Assembly (NCBI GenBank): GCA_016125275.1
Contig: WGMB01000002.1
Span: forward strand, 689,231-753,230
Source: Acidobacteriota bacterium
Lineage (GTDB): Bacteria > Acidobacteriota > Terriglobia > Bryobacterales > UBA6623
Direction of reading: 5' to 3'
DNA: 64,000 nt
Of this stretch, positions 4,901 to 23,099 are shown one piece after another; position 1 is the stretch's first letter; each line of letters opens with the position of its first letter. A program made the position numbers and the translations under genes. Under the pieces are notes generated by a model, which worked only from the letters and a program-made list of their open reading frames with translations, did not search any database and was not told where the DNA came from.

Positions 4901-5118
4901 AGTTCTCCTACTACGACGAAACCGACTCGCTCTACATCGAGCTGTCGGATCGCGAAGGCGCCGATGCCAAGGAAGTGGCCTCCGGCGTGGTGCTGGACCT
5001 CGACGCCGACGGGCATTTGGTGGGCATCGGCATCGACCGGGCCAGTCACCTGACGGACCTGGCCCGGTTCAAATCCAAGCGGCCGCAGACGAGCCCCTTG
5101 CCTGCGCCGGCGCAATAG
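4897..5118 (+). CDS. DUF2283 family protein
   Basis: I place the start at the GTG at 4897. AAGGAGGA (4882-4889) sits the right distance upstream, and the family begins with a strand like MKFSYYDETDSLYIEL. A longer frame open further upstream would run through the 79-aa gene and is not used. The 73-residue product carries the full DUF2283 pattern: D-x-L-Y-I-x-L, then EVASGVVLDLDADG, then VGIGIDRAS. The family is a small beta-sheet domain with no known activity. It is frequently the second gene of a two-gene module with a small basic partner, as here, and could be the antitoxin-like half. The Pro/Ala-rich tail (about 60-73) is probably disordered. Confidence 0.8.
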   Translation: MKFSYYDETDSLYIELSDREGADAKEVASGVVLDLDADGHLVGIGIDRASHLTDLARFKSKRPQTSPLPAPAQ

Positions 5119-5144
5119 CGCCCCCGGCCTGCCTCGGATTCCTG

Positions 5145-5150
5145 TATCTT
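5145..5150 (+). promoter_or_regulatory. -10-like TATCTT seven bases before the sulfatase start
   Basis: TATCTT is followed by GAGGCCG and then the ATG at 5158. A TTG at 5149 in the same frame overlaps this hexamer, which argues that translation starts at 5158 and not at the TTG. Confidence 0.45.
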
Positions 5151-5157
5151 GAGGCCG

Positions 5158-6417
5158 ATGCGCTCGCTGGCACTGCTCCTGCTCTCCGTCGGCCTCGCCG
5201 CTTCCGCCCCGGCGCAAGCCCCGGCTCGGCCCAACGTCATCCTGATTCTGGCCGACGACGTGGGCCAGGAGTGTTTCGGCTTCTCCGGCTCCAAGCAGTA
5301 CTCCACGCCGAACCTCGACCGGCTGGCCGACTCGGGAGTGCGCTTCACCCGGGCCTACTCCACACCGCTATGCACGCCTAGCCGGGTGAACCTGATGACC
5401 GGCAAGAGCAACGTGCGCAACTACGTGGACTTCGGAGCCTTGAAGCCGGGCGAGCGGACCTTCGCGCACCTGTTCCGCGAAGCCGGCTACGCCACAGCCA
5501 TTGCGGGCAAGTGGCAGTTGCAGGGCAGCAAGAACGCCGCCGGGACCGCTCCGGCCGACGCCGGCTTCGACTCCTACTGCCTGTGGAACACGGCCCGCAC
5601 CCAGCGCCCGCGCTACTGGACGCCTTCGATCGAGCAGGACGGCGAGCTGCTCGACCTGCCCGCCGACGCCTACGGCCCGGACGTCTTCTCGAGCTTCCTG
5701 ATCCGCTTCATGGAGAGCCACCGCGACGAGCCCTTTTTCCTCTACTACCCCATGGCGCTCGTCCACGACCCCTTTCTGCCCACGCCCGACAGCGCCGACC
5801 GACACAGCACGGACGCGCAGCGCAACTTCGAGGACATGGTCGCCTACATGGACAAGATCGTCGGCCGCATCGACGCCGCGCTCGGCCGGCTGAATCTGCG
5901 CGACAACACCGTGCTGATCTTCACCGCCGACAACGGCACGAACAAGAAGATCGTCTCGCGGCTGGGCGACCGGCAGATTCGGGGCGAAAAGGGCCAACCC
6001 ACCGAGGCGGGCACGCACGTTCCGCTGGTGGTGCATGCGCCGGGCCTGGTCCCGGGCGGGCGCGTGCTCGACGAGCTGATCGACTTCTCCGACCACCTGC
6101 CCACCATGGCCGAAGTCATCGGGGCGCCGCCGCAGAAAGGCGTCGACGGACGCAGCTACTGGCCGCTGCTGCGCGGCGACCCCTCGTACCAGCCGCGGCC
6201 CTGGATCTACACCTGGTACTTTCCGCGCCCCTACACCGCCAAGCCCGACGCGGACTACAACCACGCCGAAGTGCGCTGGGCGCAGGACGGCCATTATCAG
6301 CTCTTCGGCGACGGCCGGCTGGTGGACCTGCTCAGCGGCCGGCCCGCCACCGAGCACCGCGAGGCGTTGCAGAAAGCGCTCGACTCGATGCCTTCCAAGA
6401 ACCCCAACACGCCCTGA
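5158..6417 (+). CDS. Exported sulfatase (arylsulfatase family)
   Basis: The protein has 419 residues with a Sec signal (about 1-21, ending ASAPAQA). The mature enzyme opens with RPNVILILADD, whose Asp pair binds the active-site calcium. The CTPSR motif (Cys near residue 76) is the Cys-type signature that must be converted to formylglycine by a sulfatase-maturing enzyme encoded elsewhere. Other visible catalytic elements are the AGKWQ motif and the late metal-binding FTADNGTN. Such enzymes remove sulfate from polysaccharides or small esters in the periplasm. The substrate is unknown. The ATG at 5158 gives a clean signal peptide; an upstream in-frame TTG adds only three residues. Confidence 0.92.
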   Translation: MRSLALLLLSVGLAASAPAQAPARPNVILILADDVGQECFGFSGSKQYSTPNLDRLADSGVRFTRAYSTPLCTPSRVNLMTGKSNVRNYVDFGALKPGERTFAHLFREAGYATAIAGKWQLQGSKNAAGTAPADAGFDSYCLWNTARTQRPRYWTPSIEQDGELLDLPADAYGPDVFSSFLIRFMESHRDEPFFLYYPMALVHDPFLPTPDSADRHSTDAQRNFEDMVAYMDKIVGRIDAALGRLNLRDNTVLIFTADNGTNKKIVSRLGDRQIRGEKGQPTEAGTHVPLVVHAPGLVPGGRVLDELIDFSDHLPTMAEVIGAPPQKGVDGRSYWPLLRGDPSYQPRPWIYTWYFPRPYTAKPDADYNHAEVRWAQDGHYQLFGDGRLVDLLSGRPATEHREALQKALDSMPSKNPNTP

Positions 6418-6434
6418 GGCCCCCGCGCTGAAGA

Positions 6435-6440
6435 CATAAT
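6435..6440 (+). promoter_or_regulatory. -10-like CATAAT five bases before the class V aminotransferase start
   Basis: CATAAT is followed by GGGGG and ATG at 6446. The G-run could be a ribosome-binding site but is only zero to one base from the ATG, too close to function. A leaderless start is the simpler reading. Confidence 0.45.
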
Positions 6441-6445
6441 GGGGG

Positions 6446-7582
6446 ATGGCCCTCGACTGGTCTTCGGTTCGCAGCGAATTCCCCGTCCTCGAAGACTGGA
6501 CCTACCTCAACGCGGCCACCTTCGGCCCGGTTCCGCAGCGCGCCGTCGAAGCGATCGAGCAGCACTTTCGGGACCGCAACGAGACCGCCTCGCTGGATTT
6601 TCTGAGTTGGTTCGACGACGCCGACGCCGTGCGCGCGCAGGCCGCGCGTCTGCTGGGCGGCGAACCGCAGGACATCGGCTTTCTGCCCAGCGCCGGCATT
6701 GGGCTGAGTTGGGTCATGGAAGGCATGGGCTGGCGGCCCGGCGACCGCATCCTCACCATCGACCACGAGTTCCCCAACAACATCTACTCGCCGCTGTCGC
6801 TCGCCGGCCGCGGCGTGGAATCGGTGACGGTTCCCGGCGGCTTGGAGTTCACGCCCGAGGCGATGATCGGCGCGATCGACGAGCGGGTGCGCGTGACGCT
6901 GGTCAGCGCCTTGAGCTATTCCAGCGGGCTGCGGCCGCCGCTGGAGCGGATCGGCCGCGCCGTGCGCGCCGCCGGCGGCCTGTTCGTGGTCGACGGGACG
7001 CAGGGGCTGGGCGCGATCGACATCAACGTCGCCCGCGACCACGCCGATGTCGTGCTGGCGCACGGCTACAAGTGGATGTGCTGTCCGCCCGGCGCGGGCT
7101 TCCTGTATATGAGCGAGCGGGCCCGTCGCGCCATCCGGCCGACGGTGGTGAGCTGGCGCAGCCACAAGGACTGGCGCAACGTGAACGCACTGCACCACGG
7201 CGCGCCGGAGCCGGCCGACGAGGGCGCGCAGTACGAGGGCGGCATCCTGAACTTCTCCGGTATCGCGGCGATGGGCGCGGTGCTCGACTTGTTTGAGCAG
7301 GTCGGCAAGGAGACTCTTTGGGCGCGCGTGGCCGAGCTGTCCGAGCGGACCCGCCAAGTCCTGCGCGAGGCCGGCGGCGAGCCGAGCTTCGACGCCAGCC
7401 CCTGGTTCGACTCGCCGGTGGTGACGGCGCGCTTTCCGGGCCGCGACGTGGGCGAGCTGGCCCTGCGGCTGCGCGAAAAGCGCATCGCGCTGGCGGCGCG
7501 TCAAGGTTTTCTCCGCGTCTCGCCGCACTTTTACAACAATGAGGAGGATCTCGCGGCGCTGCGAGACGCGCTCATGGCTTGA
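6446..7582 (+). CDS. Class V aminotransferase (cysteine desulfurase / selenocysteine lyase-like)
   Basis: The protein has 378 residues, no signal peptide, and is cytosolic. It belongs to the PLP-dependent fold-type I class V group. Visible features are the N-terminal YLNAATFGP substrate loop, the phosphate-binding region around SAGIGLSW, the PLP-ring Asp in VVDGTQGLG (about 188), and the Schiff-base lysine in AHGYKWMCC (about 211). The active-site cysteine loop expected of a true IscS/SufS desulfurase is not evident, so this is more likely a related lyase, kynureninase-like or isopenicillin-epimerase-like enzyme. It lies 15 bases before ferrochelatase and is probably co-transcribed with it. 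No pathway link is visible. Confidence 0.85.
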   Translation: MALDWSSVRSEFPVLEDWTYLNAATFGPVPQRAVEAIEQHFRDRNETASLDFLSWFDDADAVRAQAARLLGGEPQDIGFLPSAGIGLSWVMEGMGWRPGDRILTIDHEFPNNIYSPLSLAGRGVESVTVPGGLEFTPEAMIGAIDERVRVTLVSALSYSSGLRPPLERIGRAVRAAGGLFVVDGTQGLGAIDINVARDHADVVLAHGYKWMCCPPGAGFLYMSERARRAIRPTVVSWRSHKDWRNVNALHHGAPEPADEGAQYEGGILNFSGIAAMGAVLDLFEQVGKETLWARVAELSERTRQVLREAGGEPSFDASPWFDSPVVTARFPGRDVGELALRLREKRIALAARQGFLRVSPHFYNNEEDLAALRDALMA

Positions 7583-7597
7583 GTCCTTTTCTCCTCG

Positions 7598-8620
7598 ATG
7601 CAATACGACGCCATTTTGTTCACCTCGTTCGGCGGCCCGGAGAAGCCCGAAGACGTCATCCCGTTCCTCGAGAACGTGCTGCGCGGCAAGCACGTGCCGC
7701 GCGAGCGGATGCTCGAGGTCGCCGAGCACTACTACGCCTTCAACGGCCACAGCCCCATCAACGCGCAGAACCGCGCGCTGATCGCCGCCATCGAAGCCGA
7801 GCTGGCCGCCAAGGGGCCCCACCTGCCGGTCTACTGGGGCAACCGCAACTGGCATCCGCTGCTGCCGGACACGCTGCGCCGCATGCGCGACGACGGCGTG
7901 CGGCGGGCGCTGGCCTTCATGACCTCGGCCTACAGCTCCTACTCCGGCTGCCGGCAGTACCGCGAGGACATCGCTCGCGCCCAGGCCGAGATCGGCTTCG
8001 ACGAGCTCGAAGTCCACAAGATCCGCGCCTTCTTCAACCATCCCGGTTTCATTGGGCCGATGGCCCGCAACGTCCGAACGGCGATCGAGGCGTTTCCGGC
8101 CGAACGCCGCGGCGGCGTCGAGCTGCTCTTCACCGCCCATAGCGTGCCGCTGGCGATGTCCACCACGTCGCGCTACGTGGAGCAGCTCGAGGAAGCCTGC
8201 CGGCTGGTGCGCGAAGCCGTCGGCAAGCCCTCGGCGCGGCTGGTGTGGCAGAGCCGCAGCGGCCCGCCGACGCAGCCTTGGCTCGAGCCCGACATCGGCG
8301 ACGCCCTGCGCGAGCTGGCGGCCGCGGGCCGCACGCGCGACGTCGTAATCGCCCCGATCGGCTTCATCTCCGACCACATGGAAGTGCTCTACGACCTGGA
8401 CACCGAAGCGCGGGAAATCTGCGAGACGCTCGGGCTGGAGATGCAGCGGGCGGCGACGGTCGGAGTCGACCCGGAGTTCGTGTCGATGATCCGCGAGCTG
8501 ATCGTGGAGCGCATCGACGAGAGCGCCGAGCGACGCGCCCTGGGCGCCCTGCCGGCCAGCCACGACGTCTGCCCGCCCGGCTGCTGCCCCAAGCCGGAGC
8601 GCCCGGGACCGGCGCGGTAG
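7598..8620 (+). CDS. hemH: Ferrochelatase
   Basis: The protein has 340 residues and inserts Fe2+ into protoporphyrin IX or coproporphyrin III at the end of haem synthesis. Family features are the N-terminal AILFTSFGGPE, the GNRNW segment, the YSGCRQY region, the catalytic His in LLFTAHSVP (about 181) and the acidic metal-site motif GFISDHMEVLYDLD (Glu at about 262). There is no transmembrane tail. The C-terminus is cysteine-rich (CPPGCC within the last 17 residues), a possible iron-sulfur or metal site. It follows a class V aminotransferase by 15 bases. A second haem gene, hemB, lies 27 kb away. Whether the protoporphyrin or the coproporphyrin route is used cannot be told from this gene alone. 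Confidence 0.93.
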   Translation: MQYDAILFTSFGGPEKPEDVIPFLENVLRGKHVPRERMLEVAEHYYAFNGHSPINAQNRALIAAIEAELAAKGPHLPVYWGNRNWHPLLPDTLRRMRDDGVRRALAFMTSAYSSYSGCRQYREDIARAQAEIGFDELEVHKIRAFFNHPGFIGPMARNVRTAIEAFPAERRGGVELLFTAHSVPLAMSTTSRYVEQLEEACRLVREAVGKPSARLVWQSRSGPPTQPWLEPDIGDALRELAAAGRTRDVVIAPIGFISDHMEVLYDLDTEAREICETLGLEMQRAATVGVDPEFVSMIRELIVERIDESAERRALGALPASHDVCPPGCCPKPERPGPAR

Positions 8621-8781
8621 AACGGGCTCGGTCGGTCGGGGAACGTTCCGGGCCTCCGCTTACCCCCTGCTTATCGAGGATGAACAGGCTAACCCCGGTA
8701 ACCGAGAGGAGCCTGTGAGCAAACCGACCGATCTCGTTCAGGGGACCCTAGACTTTCAAGCCACAATATAAGAAATCTTAG

Positions 8782-9615
8782 GTGATTGATACTGGCAGAT
8801 TTGGAATTCTAGGTTGTCTCATGGGCCTCTTCATGATCGCCGGCTGTGGGCGGTGGGGGTCGCTGCGCTCGGACGTAATGGTCTTCGAAACGCCGGACTG
8901 GCGTAGACTCGCCGAGACCCCTTGGACTCAAGGTGGCGGACACGGGCGCCTACTCGATATTCAGTATTGCCGGAGCCAAGACGGGCACAGGATCGCCTTT
9001 TTTCTCGGCGTAAGTACGAATTCACCGCTCGGCGCGCACGCGCCCCTTCGCGGTTCGCTGCTACTCTATGATCCCCTTGAGCGCACGATCGAGGCGCTGC
9101 CCAACAGTGCAATTCCGCAGCAGTACTCTGATTCAGCTACCTCACTCTCTAAGCCGGGTTTCGACGGTGGAACGATCAGGTCCTGCCTCCTGAGCGCGGA
9201 GCCTCGTAGGTACGGGATTCAGTTCAGATCGCGATGCCACCCTCCATACGGCAGAAGCGTCGTTGGTTACTTTGGACTCAAATCGCTAGAGCTGAGTGCG
9301 GTCTTATCGGCCGATGGGAAGCAGCCTGAGCCTCAGCCCACCTTGTTTGGCCCCGGAGGCGCGGATCAATATGCATCTGGCCAACACTATGTTCAGTTAT
9401 TGTCATTGGCATCGGGAGATATCCACTTTGTGGGTCGTCCGTTGAGAGTACCGATGGAAACGATTCCCATCGCGCCGTTGGCGGCGACCGGTTGGATCGG
9501 GGACGACGGCTTGATCGCAGTCGTGCCGCACGATGGCGCATGGATCGCCTTGATTCACGTTGCTGACTTTGGAGTAGCGAGATCGAGGACAGAGATCGAG
9601 GACAGAGATCAGTGA
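8782..9615 (+). CDS. Orphan hypothetical lipoprotein
   Basis: I do not recognise the family. The 277-residue product starts at a GTG, the only in-frame start that gives a plausible lipoprotein signal (hydrophobic run then MIAGC; Cys near residue 22). The next in-frame ATG leaves only eight residues before the Cys. No domain is recognisable in the mature part, which is beta-rich with Gly/Ser turns. The base composition is clearly lower in GC and the codon choice more mixed than in the flanking genes, suggesting recent acquisition or a young gene. The last codons contain a short direct repeat (GAGATCGAGGACA twice). It sits alone between hemH and rpsO. It could be a non-functional remnant. Confidence 0.55.
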   Translation: MIDTGRFGILGCLMGLFMIAGCGRWGSLRSDVMVFETPDWRRLAETPWTQGGGHGRLLDIQYCRSQDGHRIAFFLGVSTNSPLGAHAPLRGSLLLYDPLERTIEALPNSAIPQQYSDSATSLSKPGFDGGTIRSCLLSAEPRRYGIQFRSRCHPPYGRSVVGYFGLKSLELSAVLSADGKQPEPQPTLFGPGGADQYASGQHYVQLLSLASGDIHFVGRPLRVPMETIPIAPLAATGWIGDDGLIAVVPHDGAWIALIHVADFGVARSRTEIEDRDQ

Positions 9616-20099: not shown

Positions 20100-23099
20100 C
20101 TACGGATCGACCCAGAACACCACGCCCGTATCGAAGCTCATCGCTCCCTTGTCGTCCATCACCATCAGCTCGAACTCGTAGCGACCGTAGCCGCCTTCGA
20201 ACGTGACCGTCGGGCTGACCGCCGTCGGGTTCTTGATGGTGGCCTTCAAGGGGCCGATGTTCCGCCACTGGTAGGTGATGGGGTCGCCGTCCGGATCGTA
20301 GGACTTCGATCCGTCGAGCGTCCCGGTGCCGATCGTCGTCCCGGCCGGAACCAGGATGGCGGTCGGAACCTCAGCCACGGCGATCGGGCCGCGGTTCTTG
20401 TTCTCGACGTCCAGGGTCACCGTCGCCGAGACTTGGCTGTTCTCGCCGTACGCGATCAGCGTGTAGACCGTCTCGCCGAGCGGGTTGACCGTCGCCGAAC
20501 CGTTCGGATCGACATCGCCCACGTTCACCAAGGTGACGCGCGTGGCGTTCTCGGTCTTCCAAGTCAGCGTCGCGGGCTCGCCCGGATTCTGCACCGTGGT
20601 CTTCATCGAGCGGAACTCGATGATGCGGACCTGCTTGCGAACCGAGACGATCGCCGTCGCCGACACCGAGCCGACTTCGTTGGTCGCCGTCAGGGTGTAG
20701 GTGGTGGTGTCGCTCGGCTGCACGTCCGACGTGCCGGTCAAGTCGACCTTGCCGGGCGCCGGGCTGATGGTTACGTCCGTGGCGTCTTCCACTTCCCAAG
20801 AGAGCGTCGAGAATTCACCCGGATCGATCTCCTGCGGCGTGGACACGAAGTTGAGGATGCGCGGCATGCCGGGCTGCGTGACTTGGACGGTCACCGTCCG
20901 CGCCACCGAGCCGTAGGAGTTGGAGGCGGTGATCTTGTAGGTCGTCGTCTCCGCCGGCGAAACCGTCGCCGTGCCGCTGGCGCCCACCGAGCCCAGGCTG
21001 GCGCCCGAACCCTGCTGGACGTCGATCGTCACGTTGTCGGCGTTCTCGGTCTCCCAAGCCAGCACCGAAGCCTGACCCTTCTCGATCGTCACCGGCGTGG
21101 CGACGAAGCTGATCACACGGGCGGCCAAGGCGTTGACCGTGACCGTGCGCGTTTCGGTGATCGTCTTGTCACCCTTCTTGGCGGTCAGGGTGTACGTGGT
21201 CGTCTCGTTGACCACCACGGTCGACGTACCGGAGAGGTCCACCGAGCCCAGGCCCGGGTTGATCTCGACCGAATCAGCGTTCTTCACCTGCCAGACGATC
21301 GTCGCCGAGTCGCCGCGCTTCACCGTCGACGGATCGACGCTGAACCGGGTGAGCTGGATGTCATTGCTCTCGGCCGCAACCGTCGTGCGGTCGGTGCCGA
21401 CGCCGCCGTGATCATCACGCACGGTCAAGCGGAAGTGGTAGGTCTGGCCTTCCTCGGCGGTGAAGGTCGGGGTGGCCGTATCGGCGCCGTTCAGGCTGAC
21501 CGAGGGACCGCCGACCTGCGTCCACGCGTAGGTGATCGGGTCGCCGTCCGGGTCATACGAACCCGTACCGTTGAGGGTGATCAGGCCCTTCTGGATGCCG
21601 GTCTGATCCGGACCCGCGTCGGCCACGGGCACGTCGTTGCCGGTGCGAAGCTGACGCGTCAGCACCTCGTAGCGAACCCGCGGAACGTCCACTGGGACCG
21701 GCGTCTTGTTGCCGTCGGCGTCCACCTGATCCTTGTAGCGATCCGGCGACAGCCAGTGACCGAACTGCAGGCCGACCACGAAGCGGCCGGTGTTGCCGCT
21801 GGTCTTGACGAAGGTCTCGTTGAGGCCGCCTTCGAGCGTCAGAGCCACGCCCTTGGTGAGCGGGTGGATGTAGCGAATCGTGCCGCCGGGGCGGTTGCCG
21901 CCCTGCTGCCGGAACAACGCGCCCATGTTGCCCTCGAACCAAGCCTTGCGGCCTTCGCCCACGCCCCAAGCCGCGATCGCGGCCGAGACGCCGGCCTGGT
22001 CGACGACATTTACGTAGGTCTGCTCGAGCACGTTGCGGCGAATCAGCGCCTCGTTCACGATGGCTCCGTCGTGGAAGGCCTTCGTGCCGAAGAAGCCGAC
22101 CCGGCCGCTGCCGAACACGTAGTCGAGGGTGAAGGCGCCCTGGCCCAAGGCCGCGGTGCCCTGCCAATCGTCAAACTTCACGTACTTGAAGCTCGAGAAG
22201 CCGCCGACCTGCACCGGGCCGTAGCGGCTCACGATACCGGCGTCGAACTGACCCTCGTCGCGGCCCAAGTAGTGCATGAACTCGCCCTGGCCCTGGAAGG
22301 CGTTGCGCTTGGCGAACGGGATGAAGGCGCGGCCTTGACCCGTGACGCTCAGGCTGCCGTCGGGCGAACCCGGGCCGGCGTTGATGGCGAAGCTGCCCCA
22401 CTGGTTGCCCTGGCCCTTGCGGACTTCCGTGGCGACTTCAGCCGCCGTCGGAACCACCGGCATCTCGGGCATCTTGGGCTCAGGACGATTCTTGAGCGCG
22501 TCGACATCGGCCTTGAGCCGGTCGTTCTCACGCTTCAGGTCGCCGAGCAGATCCAGAATTTCGTCGAGCTTGGCGAGCTTTTCGAGGATCTGGTTGCAGC
22601 AGTCTTCCTGCGCCTTCACCAGCTTCTCGATGCCCTCGATGGCGTCGCCCACGCCGCCGTCGCTGACCATGCCGCCCGAACCGTCGCGAACCATCATCAC
22701 GACGCGGCGGTTCATGAACCGGCCTTCGTCGGTCTCATTTCCCACCTTCGGTTCCGCTTCGCCGCGGGTCGCGATCGTAATCTGGCCGTCTCGGGCGCCG
22801 TATTTCAGCAGGAATGCCTTGACCGTCTCGGATCGGCGGCGGCCCAAATCCACGTTATATGCGTCGGCTCCCCGGAAATCGGTGTGACCCACGAGCTCGA
22901 CTTTGTAGTCCGAATTGGAGCTCAACAGGTCAGCCAGCCGGAGCAGGCTGGGATAACCGTCACTGAGGATCGACGAATCAAACTCGAAGTTGATCTCCTC
23001 CCAGTCGTCCTTCTGTGCGGTGGTGTCCAGTCCCTGGGCGAAAATCGACGCTGCGCCGAAACATACCAGGGCTGGCAATAGGGCAAATTTACTCGCCAT
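20100..23099 (-). CDS. OmpA-family surface protein with beta-barrel-like region, PKD and Ig-like repeats
   Basis: The protein has 999 residues from the ATG at 23099, with GAGGAG eight bases upstream; a GTG 18 bases further up is not needed. Order of parts: a Sec signal (1-23); an N-terminal OmpA-C peptidoglycan-binding domain (about 30-135, with the ELVGHTDFRG Asp and the LGRRRSETV Arg that bind diaminopimelate); a coiled coil (about 150-205); a glycine/aromatic beta-rich stretch (about 225-440) that could be an outer-membrane barrel; a PKD domain (about 470-560, SYDPDGDPITYAW); four Ig-like repeats of about 80 residues (570-900); and a second PKD domain (about 910-999). OmpA-C is usually C-terminal, so the order is reversed. 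The likely role is anchoring the envelope and displaying adhesive domains. Confidence 0.85.
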   Translation of the reverse strand: MASKFALLPALVCFGAASIFAQGLDTTAQKDDWEEINFEFDSSILSDGYPSLLRLADLLSSNSDYKVELVGHTDFRGADAYNVDLGRRRSETVKAFLLKYGARDGQITIATRGEAEPKVGNETDEGRFMNRRVVMMVRDGSGGMVSDGGVGDAIEGIEKLVKAQEDCCNQILEKLAKLDEILDLLGDLKRENDRLKADVDALKNRPEPKMPEMPVVPTAAEVATEVRKGQGNQWGSFAINAGPGSPDGSLSVTGQGRAFIPFAKRNAFQGQGEFMHYLGRDEGQFDAGIVSRYGPVQVGGFSSFKYVKFDDWQGTAALGQGAFTLDYVFGSGRVGFFGTKAFHDGAIVNEALIRRNVLEQTYVNVVDQAGVSAAIAAWGVGEGRKAWFEGNMGALFRQQGGNRPGGTIRYIHPLTKGVALTLEGGLNETFVKTSGNTGRFVVGLQFGHWLSPDRYKDQVDADGNKTPVPVDVPRVRYEVLTRQLRTGNDVPVADAGPDQTGIQKGLITLNGTGSYDPDGDPITYAWTQVGGPSVSLNGADTATPTFTAEEGQTYHFRLTVRDDHGGVGTDRTTVAAESNDIQLTRFSVDPSTVKRGDSATIVWQVKNADSVEINPGLGSVDLSGTSTVVVNETTTYTLTAKKGDKTITETRTVTVNALAARVISFVATPVTIEKGQASVLAWETENADNVTIDVQQGSGASLGSVGASGTATVSPAETTTYKITASNSYGSVARTVTVQVTQPGMPRILNFVSTPQEIDPGEFSTLSWEVEDATDVTISPAPGKVDLTGTSDVQPSDTTTYTLTATNEVGSVSATAIVSVRKQVRIIEFRSMKTTVQNPGEPATLTWKTENATRVTLVNVGDVDPNGSATVNPLGETVYTLIAYGENSQVSATVTLDVENKNRGPIAVAEVPTAILVPAGTTIGTGTLDGSKSYDPDGDPITYQWRNIGPLKATIKNPTAVSPTVTFEGGYGRYEFELMVMDDKGAMSFDTGVVFWVDP

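Follow-up and report, generated by a model that had tools for sequence, protein, structure and literature searches.

How is a protein arranged in the cell envelope when its peptidoglycan-binding OmpA-C domain stands first in the chain, ahead of a beta-rich region and a long series of PKD and immunoglobulin (Ig)-like domains? The question is raised by a 999-residue protein encoded on the minus strand of a 64,000-nucleotide stretch (the window) of an Acidobacteriota genome (GenBank assembly GCA_016125275.1, contig WGMB01000002.1, positions 689,231 to 753,230). An earlier note, made from the sequence alone, had proposed that the chain is tethered to peptidoglycan at its N-terminus and runs outward through a barrel. 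Our analysis leads us to read the protein as an inverse-autotransporter-like (type Ve-like), wall-anchored surface stalk protein, to which we assign a probability of roughly 0.7. By sequence the protein is not an inverse autotransporter; by its predicted layout it would work like one.

Domain architecture

The order of domains described in the earlier note (OmpA-C, coiled coil, beta-rich region, PKD, four Ig-like repeats and a second PKD) was recovered by Pfam together with a family-specific scan (Table 1). The match to the OmpA family PF00691 had an E-value of 1e-13 and scored 51.9 bits, above the curated cut-off of 27.2, and the NCBIfam model of TpgA matched the same region. The Asp and Arg of this domain, which had been called intact, are D74 and R89; both are present in 36 of the 36 OmpA-bearing proteins that we compared, this one included, and we take them to be the pair that contacts diaminopimelate in OmpA. 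Ahead of the domain, residues 1-21 resemble a signal peptidase I substrate. Behind it, the coiled coil exceeds chance, its periodicity being equalled in 3 of 10,000 shuffles, and holds the adjacent pair Cys167-Cys168, the only cysteines of the protein outside the signal peptide.

In the C-terminal part both PKD and Ig-fold repeats were recognised, by Pfam, by a structure match for PKD and by the repeat scan. The PKD family PF22352 matches two stretches, the better of them at residues 495-574 (E 6e-25), and the Ig repeats show a weak match to titin Ig and one Pfam I-set stretch only. Between these parts, in residues 131-488, the best stretch of none of the listed Pfam families falls. The Ig-like repeats also match, at 32-44% identity, three other open frames in the protein's own genome (619, 1179 and 905 residues), and the barrel profile finds one copy there; the stalk module thus seems to be shared with other proteins.

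A predicted 12-stranded barrel and its orientation

AlphaFold2 models were made of the chain from the barrel through the linker to the first PKD domain (residues 205-580), with five sequences in the alignment. The best model had a mean predicted local distance difference test score (pLDDT) of 75.6 and a predicted template modelling score of 0.57. DSSP gives 14 strand segments ahead of the linker, which we read as 12 predicted barrel strands (residues 234-447), taking two of the segments as outward continuations of strands 7 and 8 that form one long hairpin. Behind the barrel the model shows a helical turn (model residues 248-250), then a linker strand (272-281, which are protein residues 476-485; pLDDT 77-79) and finally the PKD domain. 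As a replicate we modelled a relative, L011, that is 46% identical, for which exactly 12 strands are listed before the linker. Across 22 barrels of the family, hydrophobicity alternates along the 12 strands with a mean face difference of 1.06, against 0.56 in shuffled strands, and none of 5000 shuffles was as high. Structure prediction gave a barrel for the region that the earlier note had supposed to be one (residues 220-440), with the bounds shifted as given above; the models of the 999-residue protein and of L011 match solved outer-membrane barrels, with best Z scores of 17.3 and 17.0.

The connections between strands are unequal on the two sides of the predicted barrel. In the 22 barrels the mean length is 2.6 residues for the N-terminal-side turns (standard deviation, SD, 0.5) and 9.9 residues for the far-side loops (mean SD 2.7), the latter a figure that owes much to the 26-residue loop 7-8 and to one family's insert in loop 3-4, whose median is only 2. 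Median lengths are 6, 2, 6, 26, 5 and 8 for the far-side loops and 3, 2, 2, 1 and 4 for the near-side turns. The topology of intimin and invasin is described in PMC3467248 as six outer loops and five turns, with the short turns on the periplasmic side. Short turns on the OmpA side of our barrels would therefore place OmpA-C in the periplasm, where D74 and R89 can bind the wall; a putative N-terminal periplasmic peptidoglycan-binding domain is thus present in kind, as OmpA-C rather than LysM. The same topology has a consequence for the stalk, since 12 strands put the end of the barrel on the periplasmic side and the stalk exits only if the linker returns through the pore.

Nearest structures and the path of the linker

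For the model of the 999-residue protein, VIA-align placed invasin 4e1t first (Z 17.3, root-mean-square deviation 3.1, 206 residues aligned), ahead of intimin 4e1s (Z 16.9) and of 5g26 (Z 16.8), which we take to be intimin and which has the same residue numbers as 4e1s; KdgM (15.9), NanC (15.8) and NalP (15.0) followed. By plain Foldseek rank 5g26 was second, 4e1t third and 4e1s ninth, and the top row, 2yhg, covers the PKD domain instead. The intimin and invasin alignments run to model residue 276, which is paired with the last residue of the crystal chains (390 or 449); the remaining barrel matches listed end at 240-248, except 8gl6_F at 259. Among the barrel matches listed for the L011 replicate, only 5g26 (Z 16.6), 4e1s (16.2) and 4e1t (14.7) reach the linker, at residues 273-275, again opposite the final residue of the crystal chain. 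Three linker residues, P473, Y477 and R482, are invariant in 22 of 22 barrels.

On these models the predicted course of the linker is into the pore of the barrel and on to the outside, weakly so in the second model, and the passenger is predicted to be exported to the surface. In the published descriptions of intimin and invasin, a periplasmic N-terminal part precedes the 12 strands, a helical turn on the periplasmic side follows them, and an extended linker then lies in the pore (PMC3467248, PMC13078405). This order of elements is predicted to recur in the 999-residue protein, where the modelled 12-stranded barrel lies N-terminal to the passenger as it does in inverse autotransporters. The N-terminal wall tether and the outward run through the barrel that the earlier note had put forward are supported by the turn and loop lengths and by the intimin and invasin matches that reach the linker, with export itself predicted from models of middling to low confidence.

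Kinship with known barrel families

A Pfam search of the 22 barrels at E-values up to 10 gave no match to the inverse autotransporter family PF11924 (IAT_beta) in any of the 22, and one chance match in one member. The same family had no match in the protein's own genome, while E. coli was detected among 14 control genomes. Comparison by hhalign with seven IAT barrels, all from Enterobacterales, returned a probability of 0.4% and an E-value of 0.14, in a weak test without a positive control at such distance. The whole protein gave no barrel-region match among the best 25 of 36 NCBIfam matches. One candidate was rejected: the sole match of the barrel profile among PDB sequences, which was weak (E 0.15) and fell on an unrelated oxidase.

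Relatives and their distribution

Within the same family the barrel segment had matches in 5 of 18 genomes, and within the phylum in 16 of 396; one of these 16, which has internal stop codons and was not returned by the profile search, is doubtful. A profile built from the 22 barrels matched 120 of 200 genomes of the order, the protein's own included, or 95 of the 159 with at least 90% completeness and at most 5% contamination, and 15 of 396 genomes of the phylum. With at most 12 (order) or 6 (phylum) candidates scored per genome, these counts are lower bounds. A scan across 84,980 species, each represented by a single genome, yielded 12 pattern matches, four of which were close-relative loci, all labelled Acidobacteria or Terriglobia. 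Judged by these matches, the barrel is widespread within one order and occurs here and there in the rest of the phylum; for other phyla the search covered close relatives only. Four pattern matches in viral contigs were not confirmed as members of the family, and plasmids held no relative at E-values up to 0.01. Comparison of five flanking proteins with 28 loci that differed in length (E 1e-10) revealed no shared gene neighbourhood, the only matches being two to histidine kinases. One locus, L032 (G349), was dropped: it matched at E 4e-5, contains internal stops and was not recovered by the profile, and the larger locus, L047, is without a barrel match.

We compared architecture in 44 open reading frames (ORFs), which represent 43 genes, the one for the 999-residue protein included, because one gene (L017) is interrupted by TAG and was read as two pieces; its N-terminus was left unassessed and it was left out of the tree. 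The set was chosen partly by score and contig position and covers only a part of the 120 matching order genomes; the short forms were included deliberately, and in two cases (L036 and L053) the stretch ends before the gene does. OmpA-C lies ahead of the barrel in 36 of the 43 genes, that is, in all 36 that have an OmpA-C, which is the reverse of the OmpA-type porin order of barrel first and OmpA-C last. The earlier note had pointed to other Acidobacteria as the place to look for the same domain order, and there it was found: OmpA, barrel and PKD or PKD/Ig follow one another in 31 of the 43 genes, a count that includes our own gene and L052, where a spurious barrel-tail match hides the first part of the passenger. 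A PKD domain comes directly after the barrel in 36 genes and probably in a 37th (L052), Ig repeats number from 0 to 8 per gene, and a Cys-Cys pair stands between OmpA and barrel in 23 of the 36 OmpA-bearing proteins.

Two groups depart from this order. Five short paralogs of about 520 residues, from four genomes, consist of OmpA-C, an inter-domain part, the barrel and the linker, and then stop; no passenger frame was found within 600 nucleotides after any of the five genes. From their sequences they may be described as a natural 'OmpA in reverse'. They form one group (100/98) in a tree of 42 barrels that is unrooted and weak in its backbone, with 12 of 39 inner branches open. Four further genes (L034, L035, L036 and L042) also form one group (100/100) and carry another N-terminal part, of about 350-560 residues, for which no family match was found with Pfam on three of the four and NCBIfam on all four. 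In these a PKD domain follows the barrel, Ig repeats are present where the stretch reaches, and outer loop 3-4 holds a long insert. In L043 no N-terminal domain was recognised before the barrel.

Two side observations concern these relatives. In L037, a 1453-residue frame (4953-9311, minus strand), a sortilin/BNR propeller and Ig domains of the ASH/HYDIN kind come first, the barrel is C-terminal, and the frame ends at the linker motif. By eye, an apparent dispersed intergenic repeat lies downstream of the genes in L083, L085 and L086 and recurs within the frames L090 3278-6724 and L094 2492-6340, in the upstream part of each; its translation resembles a spurious ORF ('...SPIWSCSxWGLPC...GALLPHHFTLT...').

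A second start, GTG, is possible 18 bases upstream of the ATG of the 999-residue gene. Residue numbers in Table 1 are those of the gene; they equal the ORF numbering of the family-specific scan minus 12.

Table 1. Parts of the 999-residue protein in the window, with matching frames elsewhere in its genome and the short paralogs in their own stretches
Feature	Residues	Position	Strand	Basis
Whole gene	1-999	20100..23099	minus	ATG at 23099, stop at 20100
Putative signal peptide	1-21	23037..23099	minus	read from sequence: hydrophobic core, then IFA|QG
OmpA-C peptidoglycan-binding domain	38-131	22707..22988	minus	Pfam PF00691
Coiled coil	154-205	22485..22640	minus	3.5-residue periodicity
Outer-membrane beta-barrel, 12 strands (predicted)	234-447	21759..22400	minus	AlphaFold model, structure matches, strand pattern, loops
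Conserved linker (PVPVDVPRVRYEVLTRQLRTGN), predicted pore entry	467-488	21636..21701	minus	models and conservation
PKD domain 1	488-575	21375..21638	minus	Pfam, structure match, family-specific scan
Ig-like repeat 1	581-656	21132..21359	minus	family-specific scan
Ig-like repeat 2	657-743	20871..21131	minus	family-specific scan
Ig-like repeat 3	746-821	20637..20864	minus	family-specific scan; Pfam I-set stretch 791-820
Ig-like repeat 4	823-899	20403..20633	minus	family-specific scan
PKD domain 2	902-994	20118..20396	minus	second PF22352 stretch; family-specific scan
Ig-repeat-matching frame, own genome		C19:28960-29676
Ig-repeat-matching frame, own genome		C10:619072-620313
Ig-repeat-matching frame, own genome		C14:760807-761475
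Short paralog L083		2494-4071
Short paralog L084		2166-3728
Short paralog L085		2856-4376
Short paralog L086		2855-4429
Short paralog L087		1602-3173

Proposed mechanism and alternative readings

These data allow us to propose how the protein might reach its place. The chain would enter the periplasm by its putative signal peptide, OmpA-C would bind peptidoglycan and the coil would span the periplasm, perhaps with dimerisation through Cys167-168. Residues 234-447 are predicted to insert as a 12-stranded barrel with its N- and C-terminal ends periplasmic. After strand 12, a short helical turn would lead into the conserved linker, which both models, the second of them weakly, predict to fold back up the pore. 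The first PKD domain and then each Ig repeat in turn would fold outside, pulling the next through, as in the published hairpin model of intimin. The outcome would be a covalent line from the cell wall to the exterior, most likely serving as an adhesion or cell-contact stalk.

Several results weigh against this reading. Sequence homology to the known inverse autotransporter family was not detected by Pfam or hhalign. The other four of the five AlphaFold2 models of the protein are poor (pLDDT 37-49), and the L011 replicate has a pLDDT of 61.3, with 125 of 373 residues below 50, several poor barrel stretches and a poor linker (40-54 at residues 261-280). In that replicate KdgM and NanC (Z 17.0) tie with intimin. 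Threading was read from alignment ranges, that is, from end points only, with the linker weak in the replicate, and since AlphaFold was trained on solved structures including intimin, it could have been remembered. The linker motif is also kept where there is no passenger, in the five short paralogs and in L031 and L037, so that its conservation alone is no proof of export.

Four alternatives draw on these points; the confidences that we attach to them and to the preferred reading are not mutually exclusive. The poor models, and the fact that beta-sandwiches also have alternating strands, would suit a soluble beta-domain in place of a membrane barrel, but each model has numerous matches to outer-membrane barrels, with Z about 11 to 17, and the asymmetry of loops and turns speaks against such a fold, which we hold to be highly improbable. 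The main rival accepts the barrel and makes of the protein a periplasmic tether: an ordinary 12-stranded pore, with the linker at its periplasmic mouth and the PKD/Ig part as a second periplasmic arm beside OmpA-C. A 12-strand barrel ends in the periplasm, so an unthreaded stalk would stay inside, and the ill-defined linker of L011, its tie with the two porins for best match and the conservation of the linker without a passenger all fit. However, in both models, of the barrel matches listed, only those to intimin and invasin align into the linker, and up to eight Ig repeats with PKD would be long for a periplasm spanned by the coil; we consider a wholly periplasmic arrangement unlikely. A third view takes the main job to be mechanical, tying the outer membrane to the wall, with a dispensable stalk and a linker that plugs the pore. 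The five short genes of four genomes that end right after the linker, L037 that likewise stops there, and the OmpA-C of 36 of 43 genes speak for it. Yet 31 of the 36 OmpA-bearing proteins have a stalk, and the short forms are one divergent group, to which a single loss on the unrooted tree fits as well as an ancestral state. This purely mechanical role, which is compatible with an exported stalk and not exclusive of it, seems to us rather doubtful as the main one, and it is with similar reserve that we take the short paralogs to suggest that the reversed-OmpA core is useful without a stalk.

The last alternative concerns origin. The protein could be a true but very diverged IAT_beta member sharing common descent with intimin and invasin, with which it agrees, as predicted, in the number of strands, the orientation, the helical turn and the path of the linker; against this stand the Pfam and hhalign results given above, and we regard such descent as somewhat unlikely. 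A further proposal, which we advance tentatively and at rather less than even odds, is that an inverse-autotransporter system arose a second time, independently, and is now common in a single order of Acidobacteriota. In it the barrel of a reversed OmpA would have turned into a self-secretion pore, so that a single covalent chain would run from peptidoglycan through the outer membrane to the exterior, and the passenger-less and anchor-swapped versions would show its modules being exchanged.

To our knowledge, a single barrel family, described mainly from proteobacteria, underlies the inverse autotransporters. If a barrel without recognisable sequence kinship to that family takes the same predicted path, the design arose twice, or it is far older and more widespread than the Pfam model sees. 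The natural variants, passenger-less, with OmpA-C or with another N-terminus, would allow the roles of the linker and of the wall anchor in self-secretion to be asked about. The analysis also names a candidate surface stalk for an acidobacterial group whose surface proteins are, in our impression and with no literature search made on the point, little studied.

Comparison with known systems

KdgM and NanC, which are porins without anchor, linker or stalk, match the predicted barrel at Z 15.7-17.0, and their matches stop at its last strand. OmpA consists of an 8-stranded barrel followed by OmpA-C. The 999-residue protein is like it in having a wall-binding domain with the Asp/Arg pair and in joining a barrel to a periplasmic anchor, but reverses the order, has 12 predicted strands and a coil between the two parts, and carries a C-terminal stalk that is seemingly exported.

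Intimin, invasin and YeeJ (type Ve) share with it, as predicted, an N-terminal periplasmic part, a 12-stranded barrel, a helical turn with linker and an Ig-rich C-terminal passenger. They differ in that its barrel is unrecognisable by sequence, OmpA-C and the coil take the place of the LysM found in some members, and PKD domains stand at both ends of the Ig stalk. The earlier note was right about the OmpA-C-first order itself and missed this functional parallel, some inverse autotransporters having an N-terminal LysM anchor. LysM is reported in 19 Int/Inv proteins, gammaproteobacterial only, by Tsai et al. 2010 (PMC3008723), in whose main text the words OmpA and Acidobacter are absent. The LysM of YeeJ is described as binding peptidoglycan, and its loss as lowering the amount at the surface (PMC5595812). 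A literature search, with most subscription journals outside its coverage, found no N-terminal OmpA anchor on an inverse layout in titles and the beginnings of abstracts.

An OmpA domain joined to an autotransporter is already known in the trimeric class. Trimeric autotransporters of Streptobacillus are described with a C-terminal OmpA domain (PMC7549365), and TpgA, a separate periplasmic partner, is reported to strengthen the anchoring of AtaA (PMC13082670). These systems resemble the 999-residue protein in joining a surface fibre to an OmpA-type domain. Their anchor, however, either stands as a protein of its own or sits at the very C-terminal end of the trimeric autotransporter, whereas here it is the N-terminus of one chain.

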